Origin: Planctomycetota bacterium
GTDB taxonomy: Bacteria; Planctomycetota; E44-bin39
Direction of reading: 5' to 3'
Assembly: GCA_004376375.1 (NCBI GenBank)
Contig: SOJX01000053.1
Coordinates: forward strand, 1-52,587
DNA length: 52,587 nt
The notes beneath the pieces are model-generated. The model did not search any database. It was not told the origin of the DNA and worked only from the letters and a program-made list of their open reading frames with translations. The translations under genes were made by a program, and so were the position numbers. Of the stretch, positions 1 through 52,587 are shown piece by piece. Position 1 is the stretch's first letter. Each line of letters begins with the position of its first letter.

Positions 1-148
1 CAGGTGTCAGGTTATAGGTTTCAGGTGTCAGGTTATAGGTTTCAGGTGTCAGGTTATAGGTTTCAGGTGTCAGGTTATAGGTTTCAGGTGTCAGGTTTTA
101 GGTATAAGAAAATAATACCTGAAACCTAAAACCTGAAACCTGAAAATC
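1..148. repeat. Heptad array with inverted partner
   Basis: Positions 1-98 are a 21-bp higher-order tandem repeat made of three heptamers, CAGGTGT, CAGGTTA and TAGGTTT, in about 4.7 copies. Positions 115-147 carry the complementary heptads (CCTGAAA, CCTAAAA). The two blocks can pair, with AGGTAT/ATACCT closing the innermost stem around position 110. The array is cut by the window edge. There are no spacers, so it is not a CRISPR array. It lies upstream of the lipoprotein gene at 210. Confidence 0.9.
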
Positions 149-209
149 CGGCTGTATCACTGAAACTCTCCGGCGCGGCGGCGAACGCCGCGCATCCGGG
201 AGACTTGCC

Positions 210-770
210 ATGAACCGACCGATGATTCTGTGTTTCCTGTCCGTCGTATTGATCTGTGCGACGGGCTGCCTTCAGCATTTCTCGGGCGACTTCACCACGA
301 GGCTCGGCCCCGCGTCCGACCAGAAACTCATCTCGAAGACGCTGGCAAAAACCCTCGGCCAGCTCGGGCTCGGCGAGAACCGCAGACTCCTCGCGAGGCT
401 CAAGGGCAAGAAAGTCAAAATCAAGACCGCCGTCCTGCCATGCAGCGGTTCGGAACACCCCGCCGCGGCTCTGGTGCAGGCCGCGCTGATAAAAGAGTTC
501 GGCAATTACGGGATCAGGGTCGTAAACGATACGACGTCCAAGCCGGAGTTTATTCTGAACGCGATGGTGAACGTCTTCGGCATCGACGTCAAGGTCCGCG
601 CCTTCCCGGATTATTACCTGACGCTCTATTTCAGCGAGACGCGCACGGCCAGCATCGACATCACATTATACGCCTACAGCGTCGAGGATTTCCTGCCGCA
701 GGTGGACATCCACCTCGAAGACGAAATCGAGGAATCGAAGACCCTTCTGTTCTGGATTATTCCCTGGTAG
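210..770 (+). CDS. Putative outer-membrane lipoprotein, 186 aa, unknown function
   Basis: This is a secreted lipoprotein of unrecognised family. The first 20 residues form a signal peptide (MNRP, a hydrophobic core, then ATGC), and Cys20 is the likely lipidated residue. The mature part is a small mixed alpha/beta domain. It has a basic stretch near residues 64-74 (RLKGKKVKIK), then a beta-strand, a helix and alternating strands. The overall pattern recalls the CsgG/LpoB-type periplasmic fold, but I see no diagnostic motif, so that is only a possibility. It stands alone between two repeat blocks. The stop codon TAG (768-770) is followed directly by a TCGTGTG heptad array. The ATG at 210 is the only start that gives a complete signal peptide. 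Confidence 0.75.
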   Translation: MNRPMILCFLSVVLICATGCLQHFSGDFTTRLGPASDQKLISKTLAKTLGQLGLGENRRLLARLKGKKVKIKTAVLPCSGSEHPAAALVQAALIKEFGNYGIRVVNDTTSKPEFILNAMVNVFGIDVKVRAFPDYYLTLYFSETRTASIDITLYAYSVEDFLPQVDIHLEDEIEESKTLLFWIIPW

Positions 771-1010
771 TCGTGTGTCGTGTGTCGTGCGTCGTGTGTC
801 GTGCGTATTTTTTTCATAATTCATAATTCTGAATTCATAATTTCACTCGGTACTCGGTACTTCTTCCCCCTTGTTGCCTTGTTTCCCTATTGCCTTATCA
901 ACTTAAAAAAAGACATTCCTGTCTGTCGACCGCAGGCGCCGCCTGCGGCGCGTGTATGTAGAGGCGGACCTCCGCATCCGCCCGATAAATTGTAGGGGCA
1001 TTGGAATGCG
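771..1010. repeat. Composite block of four different repeat words plus palindromes
   Basis: Four separate short-period arrays follow one another: TCGTGTG/TCGTGCG heptads (771-805, starting directly after a stop codon), CATAATT heptads (814-843), ACTCGGT heptads (844-862) and CCTTGTT-type words (870-905). They are followed by compact palindromes: a CCGCAGGC/GCCTGCGG hairpin (930-948), GGCGGA/TCCGCC (963-983), and a lone GTAGGGGC half-site near 992. No gene is visible between 771 and 1055. Confidence 0.8.
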
Positions 1011-1055
1011 CTGAAGGTATTTCTGAAGATTTATAAACGCAAATCTTGGTATTAA

Positions 1056-2249
1056 TTATATTGCTTCTGGTGGGATCCTCGGCAATCCTTGTCGTTTCGC
1101 ATATAACGCATAACGCTGTTGAATGCGAGTTATATACGGTGGAAGTAATTGGCCAATACGGTATTGCTTAAACTCTCCCCATTTCTTCATGTATAAATTC
1201 TGAAAACTAAAATTAATTGTTTTTCCACCTGCGATACTAAACACAATAGTATTACTTACTGTTTCGTCAAAAGTGCCGTATTGCCTATTGTATTTTCTCG
1301 GTAGTTGTGTTTCAGTCACTTTACTTCCTTTTAATAGAAATAGTTCAATATCATCAATGGCTAAATTCCTTCTTGGGATACAATCACACGCAGGTCGTAT
1401 GTTAATGTAAAAATCCCCTCCTTGCTTAAAGACATCTCCAGTTGATATTACATCAGGATGTAAGGAATCGTTAGTATCAGAAATATAGCGTTCTCCTTCA
1501 AGAACTTTACGCATTTGGTCTTTTGATATTGTCATTCCGCGTTTTCTGAGGATATTATCTTCAAATTCAAAAGGTTTCATTCGTGTATAGAGGTTTCGAG
1601 TGATTACTTCACCAAGTTCTGCAGACTTATTCACACCATCCTCATCAAATATTTTCCATAGAATCTTTGGCCAATTAGGACTGATTTCATGAAACTCATG
1701 GAACAGTTTATTTTTAGCACTATTATATTCCGATTCCCATCTCTTAAGTGCATATACTGAAGGAGTTTTCTCAACCCATTCGTGAATAACTTTGAAGAAT
1801 TTCGTTCTCCCCTGCAAATCGCTTTTGCTTTTTACAAAAATATAATTTTGGCTTTCAGTTGAGTATAATCCATTCTCCACCAGTATTTGTATAATACGGT
1901 CAACGTTTTCGTTTGTGAAAATAAATACTGGAATAAAGCACGACTCCTTCAGCTTTTTTAAAAACTCAATATTAGATTCGACTGCAGCTTGGGTAATTCC
2001 TGCAGGCATAGTAACACCATCAGTAATCTCCTCGTCTGTTCTTTCGCCGGCCTGTAGTTTCCAATCCAAAAGTAGAAATGAAATCCCTTGAAAGTTTTTG
2101 ATCTCTTCCAAGCTTGGCAAAGCAGTGTATTTCAGATGTGGAATATTCTTTCGCTCTATCTGGGAAATGATATTGTCTATCTTCGCTTCACCGCCAATGC
2201 GATCATCAATAATAACGGCAATACCACTGAGTATATTTGCTGTAGGCAC
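1056..2249 (-). CDS. Receiver-domain (REC) response-regulator-like protein, 397 aa
   Basis: The N-terminal 150 residues look like a two-component receiver domain. It has an acidic pair (Asp15-Asp16 in IIDDRIGG), a phospho-acceptor candidate Asp62 in LLLDWK, the switch residue Thr112 in IFTNEN, and the conserved Lys140 in IFVKSKSD. The C-terminal 240 residues are not a known DNA-binding output domain. They carry a notable GDVF...YINIRPACDC patch around residues 285-305, and I do not recognise their function. The start codon is GTG, placed directly after the TAA of the upstream kinase gene (no spacer), which implies translational coupling. It is the last gene of an A+T-rich operon with a double-GHKL kinase and a DNA methyltransferase. 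It is probably the phosphorylation partner of that kinase; this is inferred from order and domain content. Confidence 0.75.
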   Translation of the reverse strand: MPTANILSGIAVIIDDRIGGEAKIDNIISQIERKNIPHLKYTALPSLEEIKNFQGISFLLLDWKLQAGERTDEEITDGVTMPAGITQAAVESNIEFLKKLKESCFIPVFIFTNENVDRIIQILVENGLYSTESQNYIFVKSKSDLQGRTKFFKVIHEWVEKTPSVYALKRWESEYNSAKNKLFHEFHEISPNWPKILWKIFDEDGVNKSAELGEVITRNLYTRMKPFEFEDNILRKRGMTISKDQMRKVLEGERYISDTNDSLHPDVISTGDVFKQGGDFYINIRPACDCIPRRNLAIDDIELFLLKGSKVTETQLPRKYNRQYGTFDETVSNTIVFSIAGGKTINFSFQNLYMKKWGEFKQYRIGQLLPPYITRIQQRYALYAKRQGLPRIPPEAI

Positions 2250-4496
2250 TTAATCATCCTCCGGAATAAAGCAAACAACAAAATTAGCACCGGACAATAT
2301 TCGTTCTGACTTAAATCGCGCAAGTTCTATCGTGTAGTCATGCCTTTCAAGTAATTGACGGGCAATATACAGGCCAAGGCCTCTTCCCTCAACTCCCTTG
2401 CCAGAATAAAATGGTTCAAAAATATACGGGGCATCATCCTTATCTACTCCGGGCCCATCATCCGAAAAGACCATTTTTCCATTGTTCCCATCGAGAAGTA
2501 TCTCAATTTTCTTTTTCTTTCTGTTCATTGTCTGTAGCCAGTAAACTGCATTATCAAATAAGTTCAGGAGTAACTGCAAGAGAACAGCATCAGTTGTTTT
2601 TGCTTTTAGAGGTGATCCTTTTTTCTTTATTTGAAATAATATTCCTTCATCTTTAAATTGCCTCTTATAAATACGCATAACTTTGTCAATAATATCCTTG
2701 ATTTCTATCAATCGGATTTTTTTCTTTGAAGATTTAAATAAAAGCTGGATGTCCTTTAATTGGGCTTCAATAAACGAGAGCATGCCTCGAAGTGCCTGCA
2801 GCTCTTTTTGAAGTTCATTTTTGTCGATTTTTACATCAAGCATTGTTTCTTTGATCACACTATCTATTAAGATCATAGCCTTACTCATAATAAGCATGAT
2901 ATCATGTGAAGCTACTTCAACTGATAGTCCAACCCCTGCAAGTTCTTCAGTCGTTTCCGCACGTTGAACCAGATACTCTCTTTCAGTTTTATATTCCTTT
3001 TCAACTTTGCTTATTATTTTAAGTGCTTTATTCTTTCCCTTGAATTCAGTTTTAAGTTCTTCAAATCTTAAGCTTATTTGCTCAGTTCTGAAAACGTCTT
3101 GGGCTTTCTTGCTTTTATAGCCTTCCAAATATTGAGCATAGGGTCCACGTCTTAGATATGCTAAAAACGTCTGTATTAAAATAATAAAATCATCGGTAGC
3201 GTTTCCTTGTTCAAGCAGCCCCTCTCGATTTGTTTTATCCATTAGTTTAGGATTATTTGCCTGCGAGATATTAATATACCCCACCACTTGATCGTTACTG
3301 AGGAAGTGGCCTGCTGCTACTATTCCCCTTAGTACATCAATACGCAACCAGTCGTCTTCCGGTTCACCATATGGATAAACTCGCAAACCATCCCTATAAA
3401 GATAAATTCTGTGGCTCTTTATTAATTTCCAGTCTTCTTTGTCCAGCAAGTACTTTGGAGGCGCTTTACGTGGGGCCATAAATATATAAAATCCAAATTC
3501 AAATGAACCACATTCAGTTGGCCTTTCATCAAGAATCTCACCTTTATTACCAAAATAGTCTTTAAACGTTTTCAATCCCGCAAGTTTTGTATCCCGAAGT
3601 TTAATTGCTTTGGGTTTTCCGTTTATCCTAAATGTGAATTCCTGTTTATCTTCGTTGTAACGCCCTTTTTCGATTTTAAAAACAGCTTGTCTTTTAAAAA
3701 GGGCATTAAGTTGTTCAACATAATTCTCATGATACTTCTGCAGTTTATCGTCTTTATAAACCCAAACTTGGAAATCACCCTCAATTGTTTTCTTTCTTTC
3801 TTTAATCACACTCTGAAAAATTGATTGCAGTTTTGTAATATCTTTATACACACGCTCCACTTTATTTTCTGTCCAGCTTCCTTTGAGATCAGAAATTTCT
3901 ATTCTAGTGCCATGAGGGAGCCTTGTTATTTTTCGCACTCCAAATTTGATACTTTCTTTCTTTATTATTAACGGTTTTCGGGTTTCGAATGGGATTGCCA
4001 AATCATCGATAAAAAGCTCTATTGGTTCACCATTCTCCTCTAAAAAATCATTATCATATTTTGAAAAATTGAAATCAACTATATGTTCGTTCTTAATGCC
4101 TTTTGGTTTGGTTATTATTCGAATGTTCTTGCCGAGTTTGAGAATTGCATACCGCCCAATTCCCTTTTCTCCTTGTATCACTCGACCTTTCCTAGTTGTC
4201 GCTTTTTTCTTTTTTCTTATTTTCTTTTCAGGCGTCGCCGGATTCAACCAATGCTTTTTGATGACATTTGCCTTCATCCCTATGCCGTCATCTTCGATAA
4301 TTATCTTTGACTTTTTTTTGATTTCATATTTTGGTCCAAAGCCCTTAAAAGTTACTTTAACCCAGGAAGCGTCCGCATCATATGAATTCTTAATTAATTC
4401 TATCAGTGCAATTCGTTCATTCTTAATTAACTGCTCGCCGAGCATAGTAAGCAATCTTGCGTAAGGTCTGATTTTCAGTTTCTGGGATTTAGGCAT
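2250..4496 (-). CDS. Double-GHKL ATPase: MORC/HSP90-like N-terminus fused to histidine kinase, 748 aa
   Basis: Two separate Bergerat-fold ATPase modules are visible. The first (residues about 10-230) has the N-box E33xxxNxxDA, the G1 motif EDDGIGM (68-74) and a GEKGIGRYA lid (109-117), as in MutL/HSP90/MORC ATPases. A middle region (about 320-435) has the RIYLYRDGLRVYPYGEP, DWL and NREGL signatures of an S5-like transducer. A coiled coil (about 470-515) leads to a probable phospho-acceptor helix with His531 in VASHDIML. The second ATPase (about 633-748) has N-box NLFDNA, SDDGPGVD and GRGLGLYIA, typical of histidine kinases. There is no membrane segment, so the protein is cytoplasmic. It starts 4 bp after the methyltransferase stop and runs straight into the receiver gene. 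MORC-like GHKL ATPases are known in restriction-modification neighbourhoods; a defence or DNA-status sensing role is inference. Confidence 0.8.
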   Translation of the reverse strand: MPKSQKLKIRPYARLLTMLGEQLIKNERIALIELIKNSYDADASWVKVTFKGFGPKYEIKKKSKIIIEDDGIGMKANVIKKHWLNPATPEKKIRKKKKATTRKGRVIQGEKGIGRYAILKLGKNIRIITKPKGIKNEHIVDFNFSKYDNDFLEENGEPIELFIDDLAIPFETRKPLIIKKESIKFGVRKITRLPHGTRIEISDLKGSWTENKVERVYKDITKLQSIFQSVIKERKKTIEGDFQVWVYKDDKLQKYHENYVEQLNALFKRQAVFKIEKGRYNEDKQEFTFRINGKPKAIKLRDTKLAGLKTFKDYFGNKGEILDERPTECGSFEFGFYIFMAPRKAPPKYLLDKEDWKLIKSHRIYLYRDGLRVYPYGEPEDDWLRIDVLRGIVAAGHFLSNDQVVGYINISQANNPKLMDKTNREGLLEQGNATDDFIILIQTFLAYLRRGPYAQYLEGYKSKKAQDVFRTEQISLRFEELKTEFKGKNKALKIISKVEKEYKTEREYLVQRAETTEELAGVGLSVEVASHDIMLIMSKAMILIDSVIKETMLDVKIDKNELQKELQALRGMLSFIEAQLKDIQLLFKSSKKKIRLIEIKDIIDKVMRIYKRQFKDEGILFQIKKKGSPLKAKTTDAVLLQLLLNLFDNAVYWLQTMNRKKKKIEILLDGNNGKMVFSDDGPGVDKDDAPYIFEPFYSGKGVEGRGLGLYIARQLLERHDYTIELARFKSERILSGANFVVCFIPEDD

Positions 4497-4500
4497 ACTC

Positions 4501-5766
4501 TTATTTTCTCCCGATCAATATAAACTCCTCGGCGTAAACCTGTCGGCCGTTCTTATCAGTCGTAAAACAACCTCGATCATCTCTATAAGGCGTAAGGATT
4601 TTCTTACTTATTTTTCTTTTAGTAATATATATTTTCTTGAAACCAGAACTTTGCATAGATTCGGCAAGGTGTTTTGCGTTATCAATTCTGACACTCCTGT
4701 ATTCCGTATTGCCGATTACAAATACGGCCAATCCCTTTTCCGACAGCATTTCATAACATTTATGTATAGCTTTTTGCATATCAAGAAAATACTTTGCTAC
4801 ATATTTTGCTTTATTCTTATCCTCACCGAGTAGCCTAAACACGATTTTTGATCCGGTATCGTTAAGCCTTTTTAACTCTTTCTCAAATTTATAAACGTGA
4901 TAAAGGCTTCCGAGCGATCCATTGCGGAGATCCCGATAATCATCTGCAAAATCTAACCATAATGTCGATAGTTGATGAAGATCAGCATACTCATATGAGA
5001 TGACATAAGGTGGACTTGTTATAATCATATCTACTTTGGGAATAGCAATCGTATCATCCAAAAAATTACGCGTAACTATTTCGGTGCTTGAAATTTCCTT
5101 TGCATCGCTTTCATGATTCGCATTCATCATGAAAAGGCACTGATCTTTGAATCCTGTTAAGACATCACCAGCCTCTTTTTCAGGATCGATTTGTGGTTTA
5201 ATCGATTTAGTCAGCCATCTTGAAGCAGATTTGAGGATGTTTGAGAAAGCACAAAAAAAGAACAAACGATACTTCCCCCTTTTGGGCAAAGCAATATCAA
5301 TTGAGTATTTCAGCCTGGATAGTTCGTGAAAAGGTTTCCTTTCATACCAGTGCTTAATCCGCTCATTTGCTTCGTTATATGAGCCACGATACTTGTATGA
5401 ACTTGAGTATGTAGATATTATGGAATCGAAATAGTTCTTGAGCCTTCCTTGCTGATAATTGTGGCTTTTAACCCGCGCGATCAAAGTTGCCACTGGATTA
5501 ATATCACATCCCCAGAAATTTACATCATTTCTCTTTGCTTCGAATGCAACCGTTCCACATCCGCAGAACACATCTGCAATTCGCTTGACTTTTATTCTTT
5601 CTCGTTTTGCATATGATAGAGCTTTTGTTGTAATAAATGCAGGAAATTTTGCAGGATAAGCATGTATCCGATGCATTTTCAATTCAGTATTCTTCCCAGT
5701 ATTCCATGAATCATCTATTGGAATAGAATCAAAGTTTAAGTTTTTGATATTCCTTAAAGATATCAT
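4501..5766 (-). CDS. DNA methyltransferase (SPPY class, N4-cytosine or N6-adenine)
   Basis: This is a SAM-dependent DNA amino-methyltransferase of about 421-426 residues. Numbered from the upstream TTG, the SAM-binding motif I is ADVFCGCGT (residues 69-77), followed by motif II GCDINP (91-96). The catalytic motif IV is TSPPY (255-259). SPPY rather than D/NPPY is commoner in N4-cytosine enzymes but does not exclude N6-adenine. A conserved HRIHAYPAKFPA segment (38-49) precedes motif I. Motif I comes before motif IV, so the order is not the beta-class order. I chose ATG at 5766. A TTG at 5781 would add five residues, but it sits directly on an AAGGGG sequence. It is the first gene of the A+T-rich operon. 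No restriction endonuclease gene is adjacent; the GHKL kinase takes that position. Confidence 0.85.
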   Translation of the reverse strand: MISLRNIKNLNFDSIPIDDSWNTGKNTELKMHRIHAYPAKFPAFITTKALSYAKRERIKVKRIADVFCGCGTVAFEAKRNDVNFWGCDINPVATLIARVKSHNYQQGRLKNYFDSIISTYSSSYKYRGSYNEANERIKHWYERKPFHELSRLKYSIDIALPKRGKYRLFFFCAFSNILKSASRWLTKSIKPQIDPEKEAGDVLTGFKDQCLFMMNANHESDAKEISSTEIVTRNFLDDTIAIPKVDMIITSPPYVISYEYADLHQLSTLWLDFADDYRDLRNGSLGSLYHVYKFEKELKRLNDTGSKIVFRLLGEDKNKAKYVAKYFLDMQKAIHKCYEMLSEKGLAVFVIGNTEYRSVRIDNAKHLAESMQSSGFKKIYITKRKISKKILTPYRDDRGCFTTDKNGRQVYAEEFILIGRK

Positions 5767-5781
5767 GTTTTTATTTATCAA

Positions 5782-6116
5782 CCCCTTAGAGAGGATAAAG
5801 CGCTTTAGTAAGTTACAATTTTCAACGGATATTTCATAATATTAAAATACCCATTTCAATTATCGGATAATTATACACAACGCACGTATTAAATTTGCAA
5901 ATATACATAAAAATCATGCATATTCAAGGTAAAATAAAATCCCAGATACATTCTAATTATAATTTGATTTATGAGATTATTAAGTCTTATTTGACTTCTC
6001 ATCCTGAAATAAAGTTAAAAGTTTAAAGTCTAAAGTCCAAAGCATTGATGTAACTTCAGATTACACTTTAAACTCTTAATTCCCGACAAAAACCATGCCG
6101 AAAAATTTCAGGGTTA
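5782..6116. other. A+T-rich intergenic region upstream of the methyltransferase operon
   Basis: No gene is supported here. The region is very A+T-rich and presumably holds the minus-strand promoter of the methyltransferase operon, but I could not choose a convincing -35/-10 pair. An AAGTTTA/AAGTCTA heptad array occupies 6011-6042, with a short inverted echo (CACTTTAAACTC) at about 6065. Confidence 0.5.
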
Positions 6117-6288: not shown

Positions 6289-6460
6289 GCAAAACCTGAC
6301 CTGTGGCCTGGCCGGCCACACTTTTGTGGAAAAACCCTGGAAAACCTGTTGAAAAAACTCCAGTTTTTCCACAATCCAGCCGATTTTACAGGTGGAGATA
6401 ATAGCGAAAGTATTTTTATTAACCTGGTCAAGTTGAACGCGTTATGACAAGAACGCGAAA

Positions 6461-6616
6461 AGCTGTCAGAATTCAGCTATCAGCTATCAGCTATCAGCTG
6501 TCAGCTTTCAGAATTATTATAATTAATAATATATATTCAGCTGATTGCTGTAAGCCGATTGCTGACAGCTAATTAGAAGCTGATTGCTGAGAGCCGATTG
6601 CTGACTGCTAATCAGG
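6461..6616. repeat. CAGCTAT / GCTGATT heptad arrays
   Basis: CAGCTAT, CAGCTGT and CAGCTTT heptads fill 6461-6512. After an A+T spacer, the complementary-sense words GCTGATT, GCTGTAA, GCCGATT and GCTGACA fill 6538-6616, so the two halves can pair. The last unit runs into AGGAG (6614-6618), which acts as the Shine-Dalgarno sequence for the amidase gene at 6626. Confidence 0.85.
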
Positions 6617-6625
6617 AGCTATACC

Positions 6626-7544: not shown

Positions 7545-7676
7545 TGGTCGAATGACCGAAGAACCGAATAACCGAATAACTGAATAACTGAATAACTGAA
7601 TAACTGAATAACCGGGCAACCGATTCATGCAACCTGATTTTCCGGCCGAATGACCGAGTGGCCGAAAAACCGAATA
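7545..7676. repeat. Octad array CCGAATAA / CTGAATAA
   Basis: An 8-bp tandem repeat with words CCGAATAA and CTGAATAA runs through 7553-7625, followed by a looser block (CCGAATGA, CCGAGTGG, CCGAAAAA) to 7676. The same word recurs at 32883-32940 and 37858-37893. With the arm above and the A+T-rich stretch to 7770, this fills the 410-bp gap between the amidase and the next ORF. No gene is seen in it. Confidence 0.85.
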
Positions 7677-13715: not shown

Positions 13716-13842
13716 GCGCCACAGGGTGGCGCGGCTAAATAAGAAATCTGGATTCCCGCCTGCGCGGGAATGACGGCAAAAGAAGTACCGAGTATCGAGT
13801 ACCGGGTAACGAGGAAAAAACGCGCCACAGGGTGGCGGCGCT
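13716..13842. repeat. Palindrome / heptad cluster
   Basis: A GCGCCAC-AGG-GTGGCGC hairpin occurs twice, near 13717 and 13827. Between them sit a CCCGCCTGCGCGGG palindrome (13756-13769), of a type widespread in bacterial intergenic DNA, and a short CGAGTAT/CGAGTAC heptad run (13786-13812). Both hairpins could act as terminators for the minus-strand gene ending at 13845. Confidence 0.8.
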
Positions 13843-27430: not shown

Positions 27431-27527
27431 AGAAGTTCAGAGTATCGAGTTACGAGTTTCGAGTAAAAAAATAATAGACTCTTTACCTAGCACTCGCTAC
27501 TCGAAACTCGAAACTCGAAACTCATTT
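27431..27527. repeat. CGAGTTT heptad array, inverted pair
   Basis: The left half (27431-27463) has CGAGTAT/CGAGTTA/CGAGTTT heptads; the right half (27490-27522) has ACTCGAA-type complements, with an A+T-rich loop between. The left half is nearly identical over 33 bp to 31424-31456 and, in reverse complement, to 33669-33700. It ends two bases before the pilM stop codon and lies inside the pilus operon. Confidence 0.88.
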
Positions 27528-27528: not shown

Positions 27529-28560
27529 TCAGCCGTCGATGCGCGCTCCAAGACCGGCGGCAACCGCGAACTGGTGCGCTTTGGCCTGGAGCAGGTTCTG
27601 GTCAACACGATCCGATCTGATTTCAACATTCTCCAGCGCGTTCCAGAAATTCACTTTGCGGCCGAAAATGCGCTCGAATGAATGATCGAGCCCCGCAAGC
27701 ATGGAGCTGCCGCCGGAGATGTAGACCTCGTCGACCTCGCGGTCAAACTGGTTCTCGTAATAGTCGAACGAGAGGTGAATTTCATTGCCGAGGTCGTCCA
27801 GCGTCGGCAATACACATTCTTCAACCTCCGCCGCCCGCTCGCCGGAATTGATCTTGAGCACCTCGGCCTGAGCGATGTCTATTTTCAGGCGGCGGCTGAC
27901 GGAGTCGGTAAAATCGTTGCCGGCAAGGTAAACCTCGCGTGTGAAATAAGAGGTATTGCCGCGTACGATATTGATATTTGTCTTGTTGGCGCCTATGTCG
28001 ATAAGCGCCACAACCCTGTCAGCATCCTCGACCTTGGGGCTGTAGCGGTTATGAAGTTCAAAGGCGTTCCCGAGTGCGAAGCTGTCGACGTCTATAATCA
28101 GCGGCGTTACTCCGACATCCTGCAGCATTGCGTAATGTTCGTCGATAAGGGCGCGTTTAACGGCCACAAGAAGAACCTTCATCTCCTTATCGCTCGCACC
28201 TGCCGCCTCCGGGTCCTCCAGCCGCTGGCAGTCGAGAACGGTTTCTTCTACCTCGAAGGGGATATACTTGTCCGCCTCGTAGCGGATGGCGTTGTGAAGA
28301 TCCTCGTCGGACATCCGAAGCATATTGACATAACGCATAATCACCGACCGTCCGGAGACGGCAGTAATGACGCGTTTCGTCTTGAAATTTCCCATCCGAA
28401 TTACTTCTCGAATGGTCTCTTTCATCGCGTCCTTAGATTCGATTTTTGCGATGGCCAGGCCGGCGACTACAATTCGATCGCCCTGTTTCCCAAACTCCAA
28501 AGCCTTAACTTCGCTCGAACCGATATCAAGGCCAACGACACTCTTTTTTCGGCCCAGCAT
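27529..28560 (-). CDS. pilM: Type IV pilus assembly protein PilM, 343 aa
   Basis: Cytoplasmic actin-fold ATPase (FtsA-like) that recruits PilN to the pilus base. It begins KKSVVGLDIGSSEVKALEF, the phosphate-1 loop of the ASKHA fold. AVSGRSVIMRYVNM, EADKYIPFE, LLVAVKR, VVALIDIGANKTNINIV and VYISGGSSMLAGLD are typical PilM signatures. There is no signal or membrane segment. GGAG lies six bases before the ATG at 28560. It is the first gene of the operon, and a near-consensus promoter lies 126 bp upstream. Confidence 0.93.
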   Translation of the reverse strand: MLGRKKSVVGLDIGSSEVKALEFGKQGDRIVVAGLAIAKIESKDAMKETIREVIRMGNFKTKRVITAVSGRSVIMRYVNMLRMSDEDLHNAIRYEADKYIPFEVEETVLDCQRLEDPEAAGASDKEMKVLLVAVKRALIDEHYAMLQDVGVTPLIIDVDSFALGNAFELHNRYSPKVEDADRVVALIDIGANKTNINIVRGNTSYFTREVYLAGNDFTDSVSRRLKIDIAQAEVLKINSGERAAEVEECVLPTLDDLGNEIHLSFDYYENQFDREVDEVYISGGSSMLAGLDHSFERIFGRKVNFWNALENVEIRSDRVDQNLLQAKAHQFAVAAGLGARIDG

Positions 28561-31423: not shown

Positions 31424-31518
31424 AGAAGTTCTGAGTATCGAGTTACGAGTTTCGAGGCAGGAACAACACTCTTTATCGGTTGATACTCGATACTCGATAC
31501 TCGAAACTCGATACTCAT
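31424..31518. repeat. CGAGTAT heptad array, inverted pair
   Basis: CGAGTAT/CGAGTTA/CGAGTTT heptads at 31424-31456 pair with ACTCGAT/ACTCGAA heptads at 31482-31515. The left half is a near-exact 33-bp copy of the one at 27431. It lies between hpf (its stop starts at 31525) and the EIIA gene and could act as a processing site or attenuator. Confidence 0.88.
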
Positions 31519-31522: not shown

Positions 31523-31915
31523 CTAGAGGTCCATCTGGTCGATTATTTCCTCGTAGGTCTCTTCAGCCTCTTCGGCTGTGACCTCCTGCGGCTCCGAATC
31601 GGGACCGCGGCCGCGGCGCTTGCCTCGTACTTTGGCTTTTTTCTTCTTTACCTGACGCTCCATCTTTTCAACAAGGATATCGATGCAGGCGGTAATCTCC
31701 TCCCCTTCCTTTCCTTCTTCCGATGCGGCCAGGCGGGTGCTCCGCCGGGCGGATACTATTATTTCGGCAGACGGGCGCCCGCGCTCGAAATTCAACGTCA
31801 CTTCGATGCGCGTAATCCCGTCCCAGAGCCTGTAAAGGCGCTCCGCTTTTTCCTCCGCATACTCCCGCATTAATGCAGTAACATCATCACCACGAGCCGT
31901 AACTTTTACTTTCAC
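31523..31915 (-). CDS. hpf: Ribosome hibernation promoting factor / RaiA family, 130 aa
   Basis: Binds the 30S decoding region and puts ribosomes into a stored state during starvation. The N-terminal beta-alpha-beta-beta-beta-alpha fold is visible (MKVKVTARGDDVTALMREYAEEK, IEVTLNFERGRPSAEIIVSA, ITACIDILVEKMERQVKKKK). The C-terminal 35 residues are a basic stretch followed by an acidic tail (EEAEETYEEIIDQMD), not the long-HPF dimerisation domain, so this is a short form with an unusual tail. The start is GTG with GGGAGG upstream. It heads the operon with EIIA, HPr and EI and has a near-consensus promoter at 31977-32005. Confidence 0.9.
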   Translation of the reverse strand: MKVKVTARGDDVTALMREYAEEKAERLYRLWDGITRIEVTLNFERGRPSAEIIVSARRSTRLAASEEGKEGEEITACIDILVEKMERQVKKKKAKVRGKRRGRGPDSEPQEVTAEEAEETYEEIIDQMDL

Positions 31916-31976: not shown

Positions 31977-32005
31977 AGTATACCACCTTATATACGACCT
32001 GTCAA
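31977..32005 (-). promoter_or_regulatory. Sigma70 promoter of hpf-pts operon
   Basis: Minus strand TTGACA (32005-32000), 17-bp spacer, TATACT (31982-31977). A CAGATTG/CGGATTT heptad array begins right at the -35 box. Confidence 0.8.
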
Positions 32006-32043
32006 GATTGCAGATTGCAGATTTCGGATTGCGGATTATAGAT
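32004..32043. repeat. CAGATTG/CGGATTT heptad array
   Basis: Five to six heptads (AGATTGC, AGATTTC, GGATTGC, GGATTAT) directly upstream of the hpf -35 box. The rest of the gap to hicA (32044-32228) shows no gene and no clear structure. Confidence 0.85.
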
Positions 32044-32731: not shown

Positions 32732-32940
32732 AGATTGCGGATTTCGGATTGCAGATTGCGGATTATATTCAGCGGCGCAGCAATCTCGGAAAAGCTCTCA
32801 GCTATCATCTGTCAGCCGTCAGCGAATATAATAAAAATAATAAAGCTGAGAGCTGACCGCTGATGGCTGAAAGCTGATGTGTAACCGAACAACCGGAGAA
32901 CCGGGCAACCGAACAACTGATTAACCGAATAACCGGAATT
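32732..32940. repeat. Three adjacent arrays: CGGATTT, CAGCTAT, CCGAACAA
   Basis: CGGATTT/CAGATTG heptads fill 32732-32766. CAGCTAT-type heptads at 32795-32823 pair with AGCTGAG/GCTGACC heptads at 32848-32878 in a long hairpin. CCGAACAA/CCGGAGAA/CCGAATAA octads fill 32883-32938, ending about 6 bases before the ndk -35 box. With the two promoters these fill the 362-bp gap between hicB and ndk; no gene is seen. Confidence 0.88.
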
Positions 32941-33018: not shown

Positions 33019-33474
33019 ATGGAACGCACACTCATTATTCTCAAGCCGGACGCGGTCCAGAGAAGGCTGATGGGCCGGATTATCACGCGATTCGAGGAAA
33101 AGGGTTTTAAAATCATCGCCGCCAAATTCGTGCATATCGACCGGGCAATGGCGCAAAAGCACTACGCTGTTCACAAGAACGAAACCTTCTACGAATCTCT
33201 TCTCGAGTTCATCACCCGCGGACCTGTTCTCGCGTTCGTGCTCGAAGCCGAAAATGCTATTGAAGTTTCACGTAAAATGATGGGTAGCACGTTCGGCCAC
33301 GAGGCCGAGCCCGGCACTATCCGCGGCGATTTCGGCATAAGCCGCCAGTACAATCTTATCCACGGCTCCGACGCGCCCGAAACCGCTCTTAAGGAAATCA
33401 AGCTGTGGTTCAAGCCTGAAGAACTGGTCGATTACGAAATGCCGGACAGGTCGTGGCTGGAAATGGGAAAGTAA
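33019..33474 (+). CDS. ndk: Nucleoside diphosphate kinase, 151 aa
   Basis: Transfers the gamma phosphate between nucleoside triphosphates and diphosphates. The catalytic histidine is His115 in NLIHGSDAPETA. The N-terminal ERTLIILKPDAVQRRLMGRI and the RGDFG loop are standard. Length is a few residues longer than the usual 140-150. GGAGG lies four bases before the ATG. It has its own promoter and is followed two bases after the stop by a GAAGTAT heptad hairpin. Confidence 0.97.
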   Translation: MERTLIILKPDAVQRRLMGRIITRFEEKGFKIIAAKFVHIDRAMAQKHYAVHKNETFYESLLEFITRGPVLAFVLEAENAIEVSRKMMGSTFGHEAEPGTIRGDFGISRQYNLIHGSDAPETALKEIKLWFKPEELVDYEMPDRSWLEMGK

Positions 33475-33475: not shown

Positions 33476-33566
33476 GAAAGTATGAAGTATGAAGGCTGAA
33501 GTATGAAATAAAGAAATGCTAATTTTCTTATTTCATCCTTCATACTTCAGCCTTTATACTTTCTTT
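33476..33566. repeat. GAAGTAT heptad array folded into a hairpin
   Basis: GAAGTAT/GAAGGCT/GAAGTAT heptads (33478-33507) pair with ATACTTC/AGCCTTT heptads (33529-33560). The array starts directly after the ndk stop and may work as its terminator. Confidence 0.88.
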
Positions 33567-33608: not shown

Positions 33609-33704
33609 ATAAGTTTCGAGTATCGAGTTTCGAGTTTCGAGTTTCGAGCGTCAAATGTAATTTCTTCTTCGAAACTCGTAACTCGATACTCTGAACTTCT
33701 TAAA
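33609..33704. repeat. CGAGTTT heptad array with inverted partner
   Basis: CGAGTAT/CGAGTTT heptads (33612-33648) face ACTCGTA/ACTCGAT heptads (33669-33700). The right half is the reverse complement of the 33-bp unit at 27431 and 31424. It ends about 12 bases before the rqcH start. Confidence 0.88.
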
Positions 33705-36024: not shown

Positions 36025-36780
36025 ATGCATAATCGTCTGAACATTGCTTTCCCGCTCCTCATCCTGGTTTCCATGATGGTTGGATGCGCAAATGACCCGC
36101 TTGCAGGCCTGCCGATGTTCCAGAGGATAAAGGAAAGCCGGAAGCTATACGCCAAGGCGCAGGAGGAAATCCGCAACCTGAAGGGCGACCCGATTGAAGA
36201 GGACCTTAAAAGGATTGAGAAAGCGGTGAAGTTGATAACCCGGGCAATAGAAGTAATCCCGAATGAGCCTGATTATAATTTCCTCTATGCCTATATTTTA
36301 TTCAACCAGGGCCGCTATTACGAAAACCAGTCGGTATTCTGGAAAAGCAGGGCCGACGGTTTCAGGCTCATTAAGGAAACCGGCGAATGGGTAAAAGCGC
36401 GCCCGCTTCCCGACAAGGATGACCGTGACACATGGAGGAAAAAGGCGGAACAGCACGGGGACGTGGCATCCGAGTTTTTCAATCGCGTCCTGCAGAGGCT
36501 CAACATACTGGACAACCTGCGGCCGGACAACCACCTTGTCCTCCACCTGCGGGGCAGGACATACGTCGCGATGCTGGAAATGAAGAAAGCGCGCGAGATA
36601 TTTGTCCGGCTTTCGCACGACTCCCGCCTGACCGATGCGGAGCGTGATGAAATGCTGCGGGTGGTAATCCTGATAGACAAAGATGAAGCCTATAAGAAAG
36701 AATTGAAAAATGAAGGCTCGTCACTCGACGAGCCCGGCGACCTGGAAGATCCCGGCAGCGGCGCGCCGATGCCGAAATAA
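36025..36780 (+). CDS. TPR-like lipoprotein, 251 aa (paralogue B)
   Basis: Signal peptide with lipobox MMVGC (Cys21). Helical repeats follow: EKAVKLITRAIEVIPNEPDYNFLYAYILFNQGRY near 75-105, and HLRGRTYVAMLEMKKAREIFVRLSHD near 175-200. This last segment matches the IFIRLSRD repeat of the preceding gene. The C-terminus is acidic and Pro/Gly-rich. Only 18 bp separate it from paralogue A, so they probably share a transcript. Tandem duplication is the simplest explanation. Function unknown. Confidence 0.75.
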   Translation: MHNRLNIAFPLLILVSMMVGCANDPLAGLPMFQRIKESRKLYAKAQEEIRNLKGDPIEEDLKRIEKAVKLITRAIEVIPNEPDYNFLYAYILFNQGRYYENQSVFWKSRADGFRLIKETGEWVKARPLPDKDDRDTWRKKAEQHGDVASEFFNRVLQRLNILDNLRPDNHLVLHLRGRTYVAMLEMKKAREIFVRLSHDSRLTDAERDEMLRVVILIDKDEAYKKELKNEGSSLDEPGDLEDPGSGAPMPK

Positions 36781-36817
36781 GAAAACGGCAACTGCTGTCA
36801 TACCCGGAGATCCTGCC

Positions 36818-37288
36818 ATGCCCACCCGCACGGCCGAGAAAACGAAACTCGGGTTGGTTGCGACGATTGCGATTATCGTGATCGGCGTGACCGCCTTTTA
36901 CGATGCTACCGATGAGACTCGCCGCCCCTTTTTCGCCTGTTTTGTAACCGGGCTCATCTGCGGCTTCCTTACCATCTTTCTCGACACCGTCGTCAAGGGA
37001 AAAGGTCCGAGAAAATTCGGGTGCACCGCGAAGTACTTCGGGTTTTTCGTGCTGTCCGCAGCCGCGGGTTTTCTTTTCACATGGTCGCGCGGCGCACTCG
37101 CAAAAATAACGGGCCACGCCGACTTCCTCTCCCCTGAAAAAATCAGCAACTGGCAGATATGGACCCGCTTCTTCATCGGCCTCGGCGCCTCGCTCCTGCT
37201 GTTTGAAGCCGCGCGTATTAAACTGGTCAAATGGGGAATCATCCGAACCGACAAACCGGAAGAAGAAAGTATGAAGGATGAAGGCTGA
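36818..37288 (+). CDS. Four-helix membrane protein, 156 aa, with repeat-encoded C-terminus
   Basis: About four hydrophobic segments are visible (LGLVATIAIIVIGVTAF, FACFVTGLICGFLTIFL, FGFFVLSAAAGFLFTW, RFFIGLGASLLLFEAAR), so this is a small integral membrane protein of unknown family. ATG at 36818 follows CGGAGA; an upstream extension overlaps the previous gene and looks spurious. The last residues (EESMKDEG) and the stop codon are read from a GAAGTAT/GAAGGAT heptad array (from 37267), so the array has overrun the gene end. Likely the last gene of the rqcH-lipoprotein operon. Confidence 0.65.
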   Translation: MPTRTAEKTKLGLVATIAIIVIGVTAFYDATDETRRPFFACFVTGLICGFLTIFLDTVVKGKGPRKFGCTAKYFGFFVLSAAAGFLFTWSRGALAKITGHADFLSPEKISNWQIWTRFFIGLGASLLLFEAARIKLVKWGIIRTDKPEEESMKDEG

Positions 37289-37453
37289 AGTATGAAAGGA
37301 AGATTATTAATAATATATTTAGCGGGCGAGCTTGCTCGCCGTTGATACCTAATTAGCCGCCGAGCGTAACCAGACCGGTTTGCTCGGCGTGTCCTTCGAT
37401 TTACGATTGAAAAAATAAAAATCGAAAATCGTAAATCGCAAATCGAAAATCCA
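37267..37453. repeat. GAAGTAT heptads, palindromes and ATCGAAA heptads
   Basis: GAAGTAT/GAAGGAT/GAAGGCT heptads (37267-37296) overlap the preceding stop codon. A TTTAGCGGGCGAGC...GCTCGCCG palindrome is at 37317-37342. ATTTACG/ATCGAAA/ATCGTAA/ATCGCAA heptads (37396-37452) form an inverted pair ending just before the HIT gene's ribosome site. Confidence 0.85.
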
Positions 37454-37827: not shown

Positions 37828-37893
37828 CGATTGCGGATTTCGGAATATTTTTTCAACTGAAAAACCGACAAACCGAATAACCGAATAACCGAA
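37828..37893. repeat. CGGATTT heptads and CCGAATAA octads
   Basis: A short GATTGCGGATTTCGGA run (37828-37845) and an octad block of CCGACAAA, CCGAATAA, CCGAATAA (37862-37891). The octads end about 8 bases before the -35 box of the next gene. Confidence 0.85.
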
Positions 37894-43269: not shown

Positions 43270-43335
43270 GACTTGAGGAAAGAACCTCAAGCCTCAGGTC
43301 TCAAGCCTTTCCTGTCAACGCGCCGCAAGCGGCGC
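43270..43335. repeat. AAGCCTC heptads and GCGCCGC palindrome
   Basis: CTTGAGG...CCTCAAG/CCTCAGG/TCTCAAG words (43270-43308) are followed by a GCGCCGC-AA-GCGGCGC palindrome (43320-43335). The same palindrome core occurs near 45108 in the other orientation. Confidence 0.75.
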
Positions 43336-45097: not shown

Positions 45098-45300
45098 TTA
45101 TTTAGCGGCGCCGCTTGCGGCGCGTTGAAATAGAAACAAGCGAACAAGAAAACAAGGAAACAAGGGAAAAAGAACGGTATGGCAGACATTCCTATCTGCC
45201 AATCAATAATGCGCGGAGCTCCTTAGCACTTGTTGCCTTGTCAACTTGTTACCTTGTTCCTTCTCCCAGAGCAAGCGGGCAAGCTCGACCGCTAAATATA
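45098..45300. repeat. Palindromes and AACAAGG octads
   Basis: A GCGCCGC-TT-GCGGCGC palindrome (about 45108-45123), octads AAACAAGC, GAACAAGA, AAACAAGG (45131-45175), a GGCAGACA-like hairpin (about 45180-45202), CTTGTTGC/CTTGTTAC words complementary to the octads (45236-45270), and a GCAAGCGGGCAAGCTCG-type half palindrome near 45283. No gene is visible between 45083 and 45505. Confidence 0.8.
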
Positions 45301-45346: not shown

Positions 45347-45505
45347 TACTCCGGTAGATAAGATGCCGTCAACCGATTACCAGATCCGAATACACACCCC
45401 TGCGAAACCGGAATTCGCATTAACCCACGGTTCAGCCTGACCGACACCAGCCTTTCGCCGTCATCTGTTCGATACCAGCACAGCCCGTAACACGTAAGAT
45501 GTAAC

Positions 45506-46621: not shown

Positions 46622-46638
46622 TATTACCTGGGGGAGAT

Positions 46639-49701: not shown

Positions 49702-49760
49702 ACAACCGGACGCGACGGATGTTCGGGGAATTACTGATTCCAAAAGAGGTAAAATAAATT

Positions 49761-51413
49761 ATGTCAATGCAACTTTCTATCGGGAAAACACTGACTCTCA
49801 TCTTCCTTGCCGGTCTTCTACTCTACGGCTGCAGCAGGAAAAGCGGCGACAAAATCATGTTCCCTTCGCCTGCGAAGGCCGGGAACCCGTCGCCGGCGGA
49901 CGCTTCAACTGACGCATCCATTAATACCGACCTGACGTGGAACACCGCCGCCATGGCAGATTCCTACGATGTATACTTCGGTACAGTTGAATCGTCGGTG
50001 ACAAACGCCACAAGTGCAAGCCCGGAATTCAAAGGAAATCAGACCGGTACGGCCTACACGCCCGGAGCCCTCGCATACTCGACGACCTATTACTGGCGCC
50101 TTGATTCAAAAAATACTTACGGAACCGCGAAAGGCGACGTCTGGTCCTTCACCACCCGCGCACAGCCTTCGGCTGACGCGTGGACCCGGACCTGGGGCGG
50201 TTCCAACGGAGACTATCTCCTTGGAATCGCATTCGATTCAAGCGGAAACGTGTACAGTGCCGGTATAACATTCAGCTTCGGCACCGGCGGATTGGACACC
50301 CTGGCGCTTATGCACAACGAGTTGGGCGAGCTTCAATGGGTAAAAACGTGGGGCGGCAACGGCGGCGAGGAATTATTTGACGTCGCGGTCAGTGAAAGTG
50401 GGATTATGTACTGCGCCGGCTCAAGCGGAAGTTTCGGCGCGGGAAGTACGGACGGCCTGATACTCGAATATAATTCATCGGGTGTACTTCAGAATGCGGT
50501 CACATGGGGAGGTGGAAACGGAGACAGGTTCTCCGGCGTAGCGCTTGATAATGACGGCAACATATATTGCGCCGGCTACACCGTAAGCTTCGGTGCAGGA
50601 GGGTCCGACGCGCTGCTCGTAAAGTTCAACAACTCAAACGAGCTGCAATGGGCGAAGACCTGGGGCGGAGGCAACCACGACGAAATAAGCGGCGTCGCCG
50701 TCGATTTGAACGGCGACATATACTGCGCAGGCTGGACCTACACCTATGGGGCCGGAGACCGGGACGCGCTTCTTCTGAAATACAACAGTTCCGGAGCGCT
50801 GCAATGGGCAAAAACCTGGGGCGGCGGCGAGTGGGACGAGGTTTACGGCGTTGCCGTGGATTCCAACAACAACGTTTATTGTGCCGGAACCACATACGGC
50901 TTTGGCGCAACCAGTTGCGATTCACTGCTGCTGAAGTTCGACGGCACAGGCGTGCTGCAGTGGGCAAGGACCTGGCACGGCAGCGGTCATGACGAAACAG
51001 GCGGCGTCGCGGTGAATTCAGATGGACACGTGTACTGCGCCGGGAACGCCCAGGGGGGTGGCTTCGGACCCGGGGGTGATGACGCACTTGTACTAAAGTA
51101 CGACGGCTCCGGAACGTTGCTCTGGGCGAAGATATGGGGCGGCGACTCCGGTGACAACGCATACGGTGTTGCGGTCAGAGCGGGCGGCAGCCAGCTGGGG
51201 CTTTGTGGAGAAACCCAGAGCTATACGGGCTCATGGCAAGACATCACTTCAGGCATCGGTGCAAACCCAACCGGCACACAAGGCTCGCCTGCCGGGCTTG
51301 AAAGCTCCCCTTCAGGAACTACCGGCGTGGCATCAGGCACTGAAAACTCCCCGACCGGCAGCGAATCGGGCGCAGGCGATTCTGATGCGCTTATTCAGAT
51401 TACAGGACAGTAA
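49761..51413 (+). CDS. Seven-bladed SBBP beta-propeller lipoprotein with FN3-like domain, 550 aa
   Basis: The signal peptide ends LLLYGC (Cys24 lipidated). An FN3-like beta-sandwich follows (about 45-135; TDLTWNTAAMADSYDVYFG, TYYWRLDSKN, VWSFTTRA). Seven repeats of about 52 residues (about 140-550) each have the form W(A/V)KTWGG...GVAVD..GN(I/V)YCAG....G..DALLLKYN.SG.LQ, the SBBP propeller signature. Blades 2 to 6 share YCAG. Blade 7 carries an extra loop of about 45 residues made of PTGTQGS-like heptapeptides before the final DALIQI strand. Sixty bases separate it from the 1020-aa gene in the same direction. Surface-exposed; function unknown. Confidence 0.87.
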   Translation: MSMQLSIGKTLTLIFLAGLLLYGCSRKSGDKIMFPSPAKAGNPSPADASTDASINTDLTWNTAAMADSYDVYFGTVESSVTNATSASPEFKGNQTGTAYTPGALAYSTTYYWRLDSKNTYGTAKGDVWSFTTRAQPSADAWTRTWGGSNGDYLLGIAFDSSGNVYSAGITFSFGTGGLDTLALMHNELGELQWVKTWGGNGGEELFDVAVSESGIMYCAGSSGSFGAGSTDGLILEYNSSGVLQNAVTWGGGNGDRFSGVALDNDGNIYCAGYTVSFGAGGSDALLVKFNNSNELQWAKTWGGGNHDEISGVAVDLNGDIYCAGWTYTYGAGDRDALLLKYNSSGALQWAKTWGGGEWDEVYGVAVDSNNNVYCAGTTYGFGATSCDSLLLKFDGTGVLQWARTWHGSGHDETGGVAVNSDGHVYCAGNAQGGGFGPGGDDALVLKYDGSGTLLWAKIWGGDSGDNAYGVAVRAGGSQLGLCGETQSYTGSWQDITSGIGANPTGTQGSPAGLESSPSGTTGVASGTENSPTGSESGAGDSDALIQITGQ

Positions 51414-51466
51414 TGCCTTGGTCACAGAACGCAGAGAATCTGAATTCACATCTTCAATGATAACCC

Positions 51467-52417
51467 TTACGGCTCATCGCGCTTGAGGAAGCCGGTCATG
51501 CAGTGCATTGCGCCGCCGCTTTTCTGAATCTCCTTCAGGTCAATCTCAATGACCGTGCAGCCCGAATCCTCAAGGCGCTTCTTCGTCACAGGATTGCCGG
51601 CCGGCATGACAAGCTTCCCCGGCTCCAGCGCGACGACGTTCCCCGGCATATAAAGGTCATCGTCCGACACTTCCAGAATGCGGAAGCCGCGCCCGCGAAG
51701 AACATTAACAGCCGATAAAGGCGTTTCTCTTGCCCTTACAAGCACAAGGTCGCGGTCTACCAGCCCCAGCACCCCGTCGAGATGAACCGTCTTGTAGGGA
51801 AGGTGAAGGCGCACGACCTCGCTGAAACCGGCCTGCCTGAGAGCCCACTCCACCTGCTCCGCGCCCGCCCGGTTCGTTCGCGTTCCCTCCGCCACGAAAG
51901 CAAGCCCGGGCCCCGCCAGCACAGCGTCGGCGCCCTCGAAAATACCGTTGCCGTGCACGGTCATGAGTATCGGAACGCCCAGCCCGGCCAGAGCCTCGGC
52001 GACAAACTTTTCCTCGCCCGCACGCTGCACGGAAGCGGGGCGTGCAACAATCGCTCCTTCGGGCGTCATCAGCATCAGGTCGCGAATGAAGTGAAGGTTC
52101 GGTTTGTCGAGTGGACCGTTCCCCACGTAATGAACCTGCACGCCGCCTGCCCGATATGCTTCCGCCAGCGCGTCATGCTCGGCGCGCGCCTTCCCGGGGT
52201 CCATCACCTCCGCCCACAGCACCCCGTTGGGATCGGTTATATTTTCAATCTCCGGTCCCGGACGGTGCAGCAATACGTCCCGCAACCGTCCGAACTCGGA
52301 AGAAACGCCCCAGCCGCCCCATATTTCTTTCATTTCTTCTTTAAACGCGGCTTCGCGGGCACGCCAGCCTTTACCACCCCTCCGCGCCTCTCCCGCCCCG
52401 CTCAAATCCTTTTCCAT
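51467..52417 (-). CDS. Amidinotransferase-fold enzyme (arginine deiminase / DDAH-like), 316 aa
   Basis: Guanidino-group-modifying enzyme of the pentein fold. Residues visible: SEFGRLRDVLLHRPG, FIRDLMLMTPEGAIVARP (aspartate of the FxRD motif), GNGIFEGADAV (Glu-Gly-Ala-Asp), the catalytic His in KTVHLDGVLGLVD and the catalytic Cys in GGAMHCMTGFL. This set fits dimethylarginine dimethylaminohydrolase or arginine deiminase; the substrate cannot be fixed by eye. The length is shorter than ADI (about 410) and closer to DDAH (about 260-300). ATG at 52417 has GGGAG seven bases upstream. It faces away from the right edge behind a terminator. Confidence 0.85.
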   Translation of the reverse strand: MEKDLSGAGEARRGGKGWRAREAAFKEEMKEIWGGWGVSSEFGRLRDVLLHRPGPEIENITDPNGVLWAEVMDPGKARAEHDALAEAYRAGGVQVHYVGNGPLDKPNLHFIRDLMLMTPEGAIVARPASVQRAGEEKFVAEALAGLGVPILMTVHGNGIFEGADAVLAGPGLAFVAEGTRTNRAGAEQVEWALRQAGFSEVVRLHLPYKTVHLDGVLGLVDRDLVLVRARETPLSAVNVLRGRGFRILEVSDDDLYMPGNVVALEPGKLVMPAGNPVTKKRLEDSGCTVIEIDLKEIQKSGGAMHCMTGFLKRDEP

Positions 52418-52472
52418 TCCATTTCTCCCGTTACTTTTGCCAGGGCCGACCGATAACCTGATATTATTCTGC

Positions 52473-52502
52473 AAAAAACAAGGCAGGCTGAAAACCTGCC
52501 TT
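52473..52502 (-). terminator. Minus-strand rho-independent terminator
   Basis: AAGGCAGG (52480-52487) pairs with CCTGCCTT (52495-52502). On the minus strand the hairpin is followed by a run of six T (52478-52473). It probably ends a minus-strand gene beyond the right edge, just upstream of the amidinotransferase-fold gene. Confidence 0.85.
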
Positions 52503-52587
52503 TACTCGTTTCTCGTTTCTCGTTACTCGTTACTCGTTTCTCGTTTCTCGTTACTCGTTACTCGTTACTCGTTTCTCGTTACTCGTT
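52498..52587. repeat. CTCGTTT/CTCGTTA heptad array, cut by window edge
   Basis: Twelve or more direct heptads CTCGTTT or CTCGTTA run to the end of the window. The two forms alternate irregularly. The array extends beyond the edge. Confidence 0.92.

Follow-up and report, generated by a model that had tools for sequence, protein, structure and literature searches.

Why should the gaps between genes of one bacterial contig be filled with short tandem arrays that keep a unit of seven or eight bases while the sequence of the unit differs between arrays? The question is posed by a 52,587-nucleotide stretch of Planctomycetota DNA (assembly GCA_004376375.1, lineage E44-bin39), which is the entire contig SOJX01000053.1 (C11) and is called the window here; its genome comprises 5.68 Mb in 157 contigs. 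Sequence comparisons within this genome and beyond it suggest an answer. About 44% of the sampled arrays are paired arms of hairpins, and these hairpins may well be non-autonomous mobile elements resembling REPINs (repetitive extragenic palindromic, or REP, doublets forming hairpins), predicted to be copied in single-stranded form by Y1 transposases of the IS200/RAYT type (RAYT, REP-associated tyrosine transposase). We give this reading a probability of roughly one half. It draws on the pairing of the arrays, a polarity fixed for each word, words that recur, loops that are alike where flanks are not, a family of miniature inverted-repeat transposable elements (MITEs) with target duplications, nested copies, a patchy distribution and an in-frame copy in the gene hypD.

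Period and reality of the arrays

Arrays in the window were located with Tandem Repeats Finder (score of at least 30) and a lag scan. An earlier note on this DNA had listed arrays at 26 positions, of which 24 were recovered with period 7 or 8; the array at 31424 was picked up just as one arm of an inverted pair (31427-31456), and none was detected at 43270. The enrichment of period 7 over other periods, which that note had proposed, held in the lag scan, where lags 7 and 8 dominate the short lags. Runs of eight matches in the intergenic DNA of the window number 110 at lag 7 and 37 at lag 8, against 0-1 at each of lags 2-6 and 9-13; the multiples 14, 16, 21, 24 and 28 are likewise populated, and coding DNA holds at most 11 eight-base runs at any lag. 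A sample of 41 loci (821 kb) from the same genome, in which genes were called with a simple codon model, behaves similarly: its intergenic DNA holds 132 tandem segments at lag 7, 53 at lag 8, four or five at each of lags 6, 9 and 12, one at lag 11 and none at lags 4, 5, 10 and 13. Across 422 kb there were 80 lag-7 segments and none in a Markov resample. The set unit length is therefore tight, at 7 or 8, and tandem 7-bp units are over-represented between genes, the mark of heptanucleotide simple sequence repeats and of the short tandemly repeated repetitive (STRR) sequences. Heptanucleotide STRR repeats are known from cyanobacteria.

An assembly artefact was considered and ruled out, as similar arrays lie inside a 2.76-Mb contig of another genome (G170) assembled in six contigs. 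Contig ends do fall within arrays more often than expected (8 of 32 sampled ends, two of the 32 reading N, against 2.5%), so the assembly breaks at long arrays and its longest arrays are cut short. Both ends of the window (1 and 52587) are contig ends within arrays. No Rfam family matched the window at gathering scores.

Hairpins of fixed polarity

The sample yielded 283 arrays, 211 of heptads and 72 of octads. Many are halves of a larger unit in which a word array is followed by a loop and then by an array of the reverse-complement word. An inverted partner lies within 120 nucleotides of 92 of the 211 heptad arrays, whereas five permutations gave 7-11 and a partner in direct orientation was found for 6; for octads the corresponding counts are 19 of 72 inverted and 2 direct. 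At a slightly lower score and with both periods combined, 125 of the 283 arrays are 5' or 3' arms, and by sequence complementarity these have the inverted pair and spacer of a hairpin, as REPINs do. Each word also keeps to one orientation. Polarity per word agrees in 125 of 125 arms, although agreement between the arms of a single hairpin is built into this count; taking each hairpin once, none of 41 hairpins in the 15 words with several hairpins is reversed. The 5' arms contain 1316 G and 690 C.

Loops are shared within families and flanks are not

Copies of a mobile element would be expected to resemble each other beyond the repeated word, and the loops do. With cores masked, and with hairpins flagged as MITE-borne and neighbouring hairpins dropped, 28 hairpins were kept; loop similarity among them is 0.43 within a family and 0.33 between families, a difference reached by none of 500 label shuffles and, on sets of 37 and 41 hairpins, again by none of 500. 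The outer flanks, 20-55 nucleotides beyond the arms, are no more alike for the same word (0.155) than for different words (0.158; 367 of 500 shuffles reach the difference) in 28 hairpins selected much as for the loops. Dispersed copies with homology ending at the element, as in REPINs, are thus seen in loops and flanks, while unit order is not significantly shared. The hairpin at window position 33478 and locus L069 form a clean dispersed pair. In addition, 5' arms match one another across copies at 0.88-0.94, and the two arms of one hairpin match at 0.81-0.91 (nine families, the former higher in eight); the element is therefore asymmetric and inherited, and its stem is not kept perfectly paired.

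A small vocabulary of words

It had been proposed that every array has its own word. The 211 heptad arrays instead draw on 69 canonical words, fewer than the 188 of a composition null (minimum 173 over 200 draws), and identical-word pairs number 581 against 25 expected; the commonest belong to the TGAAG, GGATT, CAGCT, CGATT and CGAGT families. Thus the earlier view that arrays share period and not sequence is right about the common period, but words do recur across arrays. A second proposal, that the first five bases of a unit are stable and the last two vary, applies in part to heptads, whose two most variable columns lie side by side in 78.1 of 148 arrays where 49.3 would be expected, and fails for octads (17.5 of 54 against 15.4). 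Spread of one selfish sequence is, as the note had argued, insufficient to explain the arrays. Independence of the words is not supported: the arrays reuse a small set of them, found in other phyla as well, and hairpins with the same word are alike in polarity and loops. This points to many related element families that spread, and not to copying carried out separately at each site.

Arrays of the window

The arrays located in the window are listed below, with the strand of the word (a dot where it is unassigned).

1-103, plus: 5' arm of CAGGTKT heptads, cut by the contig start
117-145, minus: 3' arm (ACCTGAA), partner of 1-103
770-806, plus: unpaired TCGTGTG array, adjoining the stop codon of gene 210-770
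813-842, dot: unpaired TTCATAA heptads
845-861, minus: short array of the CGAGT family (ACTCGGT)
869-896, dot: weak octad array (CCTTGTTG)
6011-6042, plus: 5' arm of AAAGTTT heptads, with its 3' arm at 6061-6079
6430-6461, plus: left-end relic of the CTCAAGTTGACTG MITE beside the CAGCT hairpin, 87.5% over 32 bases
6461-6515, plus: 5' arm of CAGCTAT heptads
6539-6604, minus: 3' arm (GCTGATT), partner of 6461-6515
7549-7612, minus: octad array CCGAATAA, inverted partner not found
13784-13811, plus: unpaired heptads of the CGAGT family (AGTACCG)
27440-27464, plus: 5' arm of CGAGT heptads
27499-27523, minus: 3' arm (ACTCGAA), 5 bases beyond the stop codon of minus-strand gene 27529-28560
31427-31456, plus: 5' arm of CGAGT heptads
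31482-31516, minus: 3' arm (GATACTC), 6 bases beyond the stop codon of minus-strand gene 31523-31915
32005-32037, plus: unpaired array of the GGATT family (AGATTGC)
32733-32764, plus: unpaired array of the GGATT family (GATTGCG)
32793-32823, plus: 5' arm of CAGCT heptads
32844-32877, minus: 3' arm (AGCTGAG)
32883-32935, dot: octad array AACCGAAC
33478-33510, plus: 5' arm of TGAAG heptads, beginning 3 bases past the stop codon of gene 33019-33474
33539-33561, minus: 3' arm (TTCATAC)
33612-33648, plus: 5' arm of CGAGT heptads
33669-33697, minus: 3' arm (TCGAAAC)
37267-37296, plus: TGAAG array overlapping the 3' end of open reading frame (ORF) 36710-37288
37395-37409, plus: short 5' arm of CGATT heptads, seen by eye
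37418-37451, minus: 3' arm (AAAATCG)
37855-37893, dot: octad array AACCGAAA
44572-44612, plus: unpaired GGATTTC array
45135-45172, plus: 5' arm of AACAAGG octads
45229-45258, minus: 3' arm (CTTGTTAC)
52502-52587, minus: array of the CGAGT family (TTACTCG), cut by the contig end

The block at 1056-5781 is rich in A+T (35-37% GC at 2001-6000) and is perhaps an acquired island; one of its proteins has two GHKL-type ATPase domains, another is an N6/N4 DNA methylase, and a third has no Pfam match.

A MITE family whose inner words change

One group of hairpins lies inside a conventional element, with CTCAAGTTGACTG ends enclosing an inner hairpin. The genome contains 29 such ends (14 forward, 15 reverse, at most two mismatches; loci L314-L342), compared with one match for a reversed-letter control, and the window relic adjoins the array at 6461-6604. 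Nine copies have both ends, and four of the nine are bordered by target duplications (7 bases in three, 9 bases in one, read by eye). Terminal inverted repeats, a hallmark of MITEs, were looked for as such in this family and are present. Hairpins in general show no excess of target duplications (63 hairpins; five of at least 8 bases, 2.9 expected), which fits Y1 transposition and not classic MITEs.

The contents of the CTCAAGTTGACTG copies vary between CAGCTTT heptads, AAAGGTTC-type octads and a CAGC hairpin with an octad hairpin nested in it. By eye, the nested hairpin occupies the loop of two CAGC copies, and the loops of other copies are free of it. Homologous sites thus do differ in word, either because one word was replaced or because one was inserted. 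The check proposed in the note, whether word identity changes at orthologous gaps, has two outcomes: the word changes at this paralogous site (CAGCTTT heptad to AAAGGTTC octad), and the core word is constant at the orthologous site described next. At both sites the number of units differs between copies.

An in-frame copy in hypD

A GGATT hairpin was found within a gene in three genomes (G121, G152 and G048), and the product is HypD (PF01924, E 2e-145). HypD was recovered in 14 of the 33 genomes of that family. Seven of them (the three named, with G291, G399, G400 and G394; loci L392-L398) carry the hairpin in frame, between the FDA motif (YDA in G152) and the CxCG motif, and four outgroups (G105, G167, G257 and G247) have hypD without it. 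The arms are rearranged in G401, G266 has a different degenerate insert, and two hypD fragments of G393 were not displayed by the motif search. Across 77-89% protein identity the core word of the hairpin remains constant, the 5' arm has one to four units and the variable pair is GA or GC. Translation of the hairpin yields peptides such as RISDFGFRINSEIRNPKS. Comparison of the G121 and G152 stretches gave only one orthologous array site.

Distribution in other genomes

Of 392 genomes from the phylum, 26 contain hairpins of the form GGATT-loop-AATCC (100 overlapping matches, forward and summed), and the opposite polarity gave one match in one of the 392. Furthermore, at least 117 stretches of named genomes contain GGATT arrays, and the matches listed include cyanobacteria, acidobacteria, chloroflexi, planctomycetes, verrucomicrobia, bacteroidetes, xanthomonads and others. 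Among 80 of these stretches, 18 have a partner arm, all 18 with GGATT first, and 62 have none. Hairpin polarity is therefore no quirk of one genome. Three hairpins on separate contigs of G252 have loop sequence in common, judged by eye. A TGAAG hairpin lies 3' of a HIT-domain gene in G170, and the same place in its congener G055 is without a hairpin. The distribution within the phylum is patchy. The 58 other genomes drawn for comparison are kin of the present one only at phylum level, and 20 stretches of 14 phylum relatives, picked regardless of arrays, gave almost no heptad arrays (two weak segments).

Y1 transposases as candidate movers

If the hairpins move, Y1 transposases are the candidate movers, and across the phylum the two tend to occur together. 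At least one match to Y1_Tnp (PF01797) is present in 25 of the 26 genomes with GGATT hairpins and in 220 of the 366 others; at least five matches are present in 22 of 26 and 77 of 366 (Fisher P 6e-11). When the genome families f22 and f42 are set aside, the latter counts become 9 of 13 and 56 of 340 (P 6e-5), or 56 of 310 for the others if a fifth of the zero-match genomes is left out (P 1e-4). Within f22, hairpin genomes have more matches (8 to at least 11) than the other genomes having any (2 to at least 11).

The proposed mechanism is as follows. Paired arrays would be the arms of foldback elements moved as units, with a Y1 transposase acting on single-stranded hairpins as the predicted mover. 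Unpaired arrays may be worn or one-armed copies, and the number of units and the two variable bases may turn over by slippage. The word would then mark the family, and the enzyme may read it 7 or 8 bases at a time. A bolder extension would place such hairpins in one bacteria-wide foldback superfamily, with the word as family address and the orientation set by one class of single-strand (HUH) enzymes; elements would switch family when their words are exchanged between unchanged ends, for which the MITE copies are the example. We regard it as tentative and rather unlikely in this full form.

In L082 a RAYT-like Y1 gene is followed, 76 bases after its stop codon, by an octad array (2198-2275), the nearest downstream array among the five Y1 loci of the genome. 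A second palindrome, with TTTAGC, a GC-rich stem and GTTAA or GTTGA, occurs at window positions 37318-37345 and 45098-45127; five of its nine forward-strand copies are within 60 nucleotides of an array and one is in the Y1 locus L083. The TTTAGC-to-GTTAA pattern shows no excess (14 against 10 in shuffles). A reverse transcriptase was also considered as generator and rejected: the genome has one (PF00078, L086), with one weak octad segment nearby.

Observations that speak against mobility

A number of results weigh against the proposal that the hairpins are mobile elements. The present genome has only five Y1 matches, and six arrays lie in the 14.8 kb around them where about five are expected from the genome rate. 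Adjacency to RAYT genes was thus rejected for this genome, with no array enrichment beside its Y1 genes. The Y1 excess elsewhere is a correlation among related genomes, with no control transposase, genome size uncorrected and counts running up to at least 11, and within f42 and f46 hairpin genomes are not richer in Y1 than others with at least one match; this within-family result lowers our confidence in the mobile-element reading. At the thresholds used, 56% of arrays have no partner (the five permutations belong to the slightly stricter heptad search).

The similarity evidence has exceptions too. Several of the top single loop pairs are between families and involve short loops, and three same-arm hairpins of G246 have loops that look unrelated. 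Same-word arms do not significantly agree in their order of unit variants in any of seven families (19-189 of 200 shuffles reach the observed value), in a test weakened by mixing 5' and 3' arms; the arms therefore change fast or are partly independent. Although 55 of 64 hairpins align to another hairpin, the figure is inflated because same-word arms align anyway, and it is not used as proof. Nor are the reversed-letter controls empty: two gave 6 matches in one genome and 7 matches in three genomes (five of them in the present genome), and another matches various genomes, with 36 matches in G170 against 24 for the TGAAG pattern.

Alternative explanations

The alternative that survives best is that each array grows at its own site as the polymerase slips, preferentially by 7-8 bases, and that hairpins arise where short palindromes help slippage. 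The idea of a step set by the polymerase footprint has been published (PMC4692102), and it would agree with short lags populated well only at 7 and 8, with unit numbers that differ among copies of one MITE and of one hypD site, and with the unit-order result. It leaves unexplained why words recur far above chance with constant polarity and loops common to a word, and why copies are present or absent as whole units. Slippage as the whole cause is therefore unlikely in our judgement, though it retains appreciable weight.

The arrays could instead be landing strips for a lattice-forming protein that places one subunit on every 7 or 8 bp and recognizes a 5-bp core, with selection keeping the facing pairs. 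Models for such binding exist in the omega heptads of plasmid pSM19035 and the 8-bp MetJ boxes. The five-plus-two design of part of the heptads, the fixed facing polarity and a hypD core that stays constant while the two variable bases change would all suit such a protein, as would the opposite-strand heptad pairs of Geobacter metallireducens, read as regulator sites in PMC2700814. A genome with many words would, however, require many proteins, and the patchiness within the phylum, such as GGATT hairpins in 26 of 392 genomes, is hard to reconcile with it; we consider it distinctly improbable.

Placement near gene ends raises a further alternative, selected hairpins at RNA 3' ends that act as terminators or protect mRNA. 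Arrays within 15 nucleotides of a stop codon number 89 against 32 under random placement, and those within 15 nucleotides of a start codon 23 against 23 (based on 267 real arrays and about 234 control placements). Selection on the stem should preserve pairing, yet the match between arms is no better within a hairpin (0.854) than across different hairpins of one family (0.863), which means that the stem is not being kept paired; in addition, one copy is translated within hypD. The probability of this alternative is low. Lowest of all is that of repeat addition, telomerase-like or terminal-transferase-like, to both 3' ends of double-strand breaks followed by joining, which would account for polarity, differing arms, the G excess of 5' arms and the lack of target duplications in a genome with one reverse transcriptase, but not for loops common within a word or for many words in one genome.

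Relation to known repeats

The mobile hairpins proposed here are closest to REPINs, described as inverted REP doublets that are linked to RAYTs, fold as hairpins in many intergenic copies and leave singlets as likely remnants (PMC3116915); the genome-wide Y1 association is a further, tentative likeness. They differ in that their arms consist of tandem 7-8 bp units rather than a single REP, that one genome uses dozens of words and that arrays are not enriched near the Y1 genes of the present genome. They are not classed as REPINs because RAYT adjacency failed. A palindromic REP in each arm and a GTAG or CGTC tag are further marks of REPINs (for the tags, PMC3733652). The BrickBuilt MITE of Porphyromonas gingivalis likewise has terminal inverted repeats with inner tandem repeats (PMC4596501), and the CTCAAGTTGACTG family adds 7-9 bp target duplications; unlike the present hairpins, with their 7-8 bp units in two facing arms and no general excess of target duplications, BrickBuilt is reported to contain 23-nucleotide direct repeats.

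Among heptad repeats, those of G. metallireducens are tandem, paired on opposite strands and dispersed over the genome, but fall into few classes, and the accessible part of that account (PMC2700814) gives no polarity rule or dispersal analysis. The GGGAATC and GGGGAYT heptads of Xanthomonas and Nostoc (PMC4692102) and the TAACTGA repeats of Beggiatoaceae (PMC4679880) are similarly intergenic, variable in length and near ORFs, and for the former stem-loops from inverted repeats are mentioned; in the accessible parts of both accounts there are one or few words per genome and the repeats are not treated as mobile hairpins. Earlier publications already report that heptamers are over-represented in bacteria, with reference to a 2007 survey, and put forward a slippage idea (PMC4692102); the pairing of heptad arrays in G. 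metallireducens is published too (PMC2700814). Searches of openly licensed papers turned up neither the polarity rule nor mobile hairpins with heptad arms. The cyanobacterial STRR are likewise intergenic heptads that vary in length near ORFs, with one or few words per genome.

Implications

Heptad repeats are generally classified as simple repeats, and slippage is the cause offered for them. Given near-constant polarity across several phyla, shared loops and an in-frame insertion, many of them would instead be mobile hairpins. If this is true, there would be a testable mover, the Y1 transposases, as well as a reason for array-filled intergenic DNA and for the breaks in its assembly, and the extra peptide in HypD of seven genomes would be explained as a translated element.

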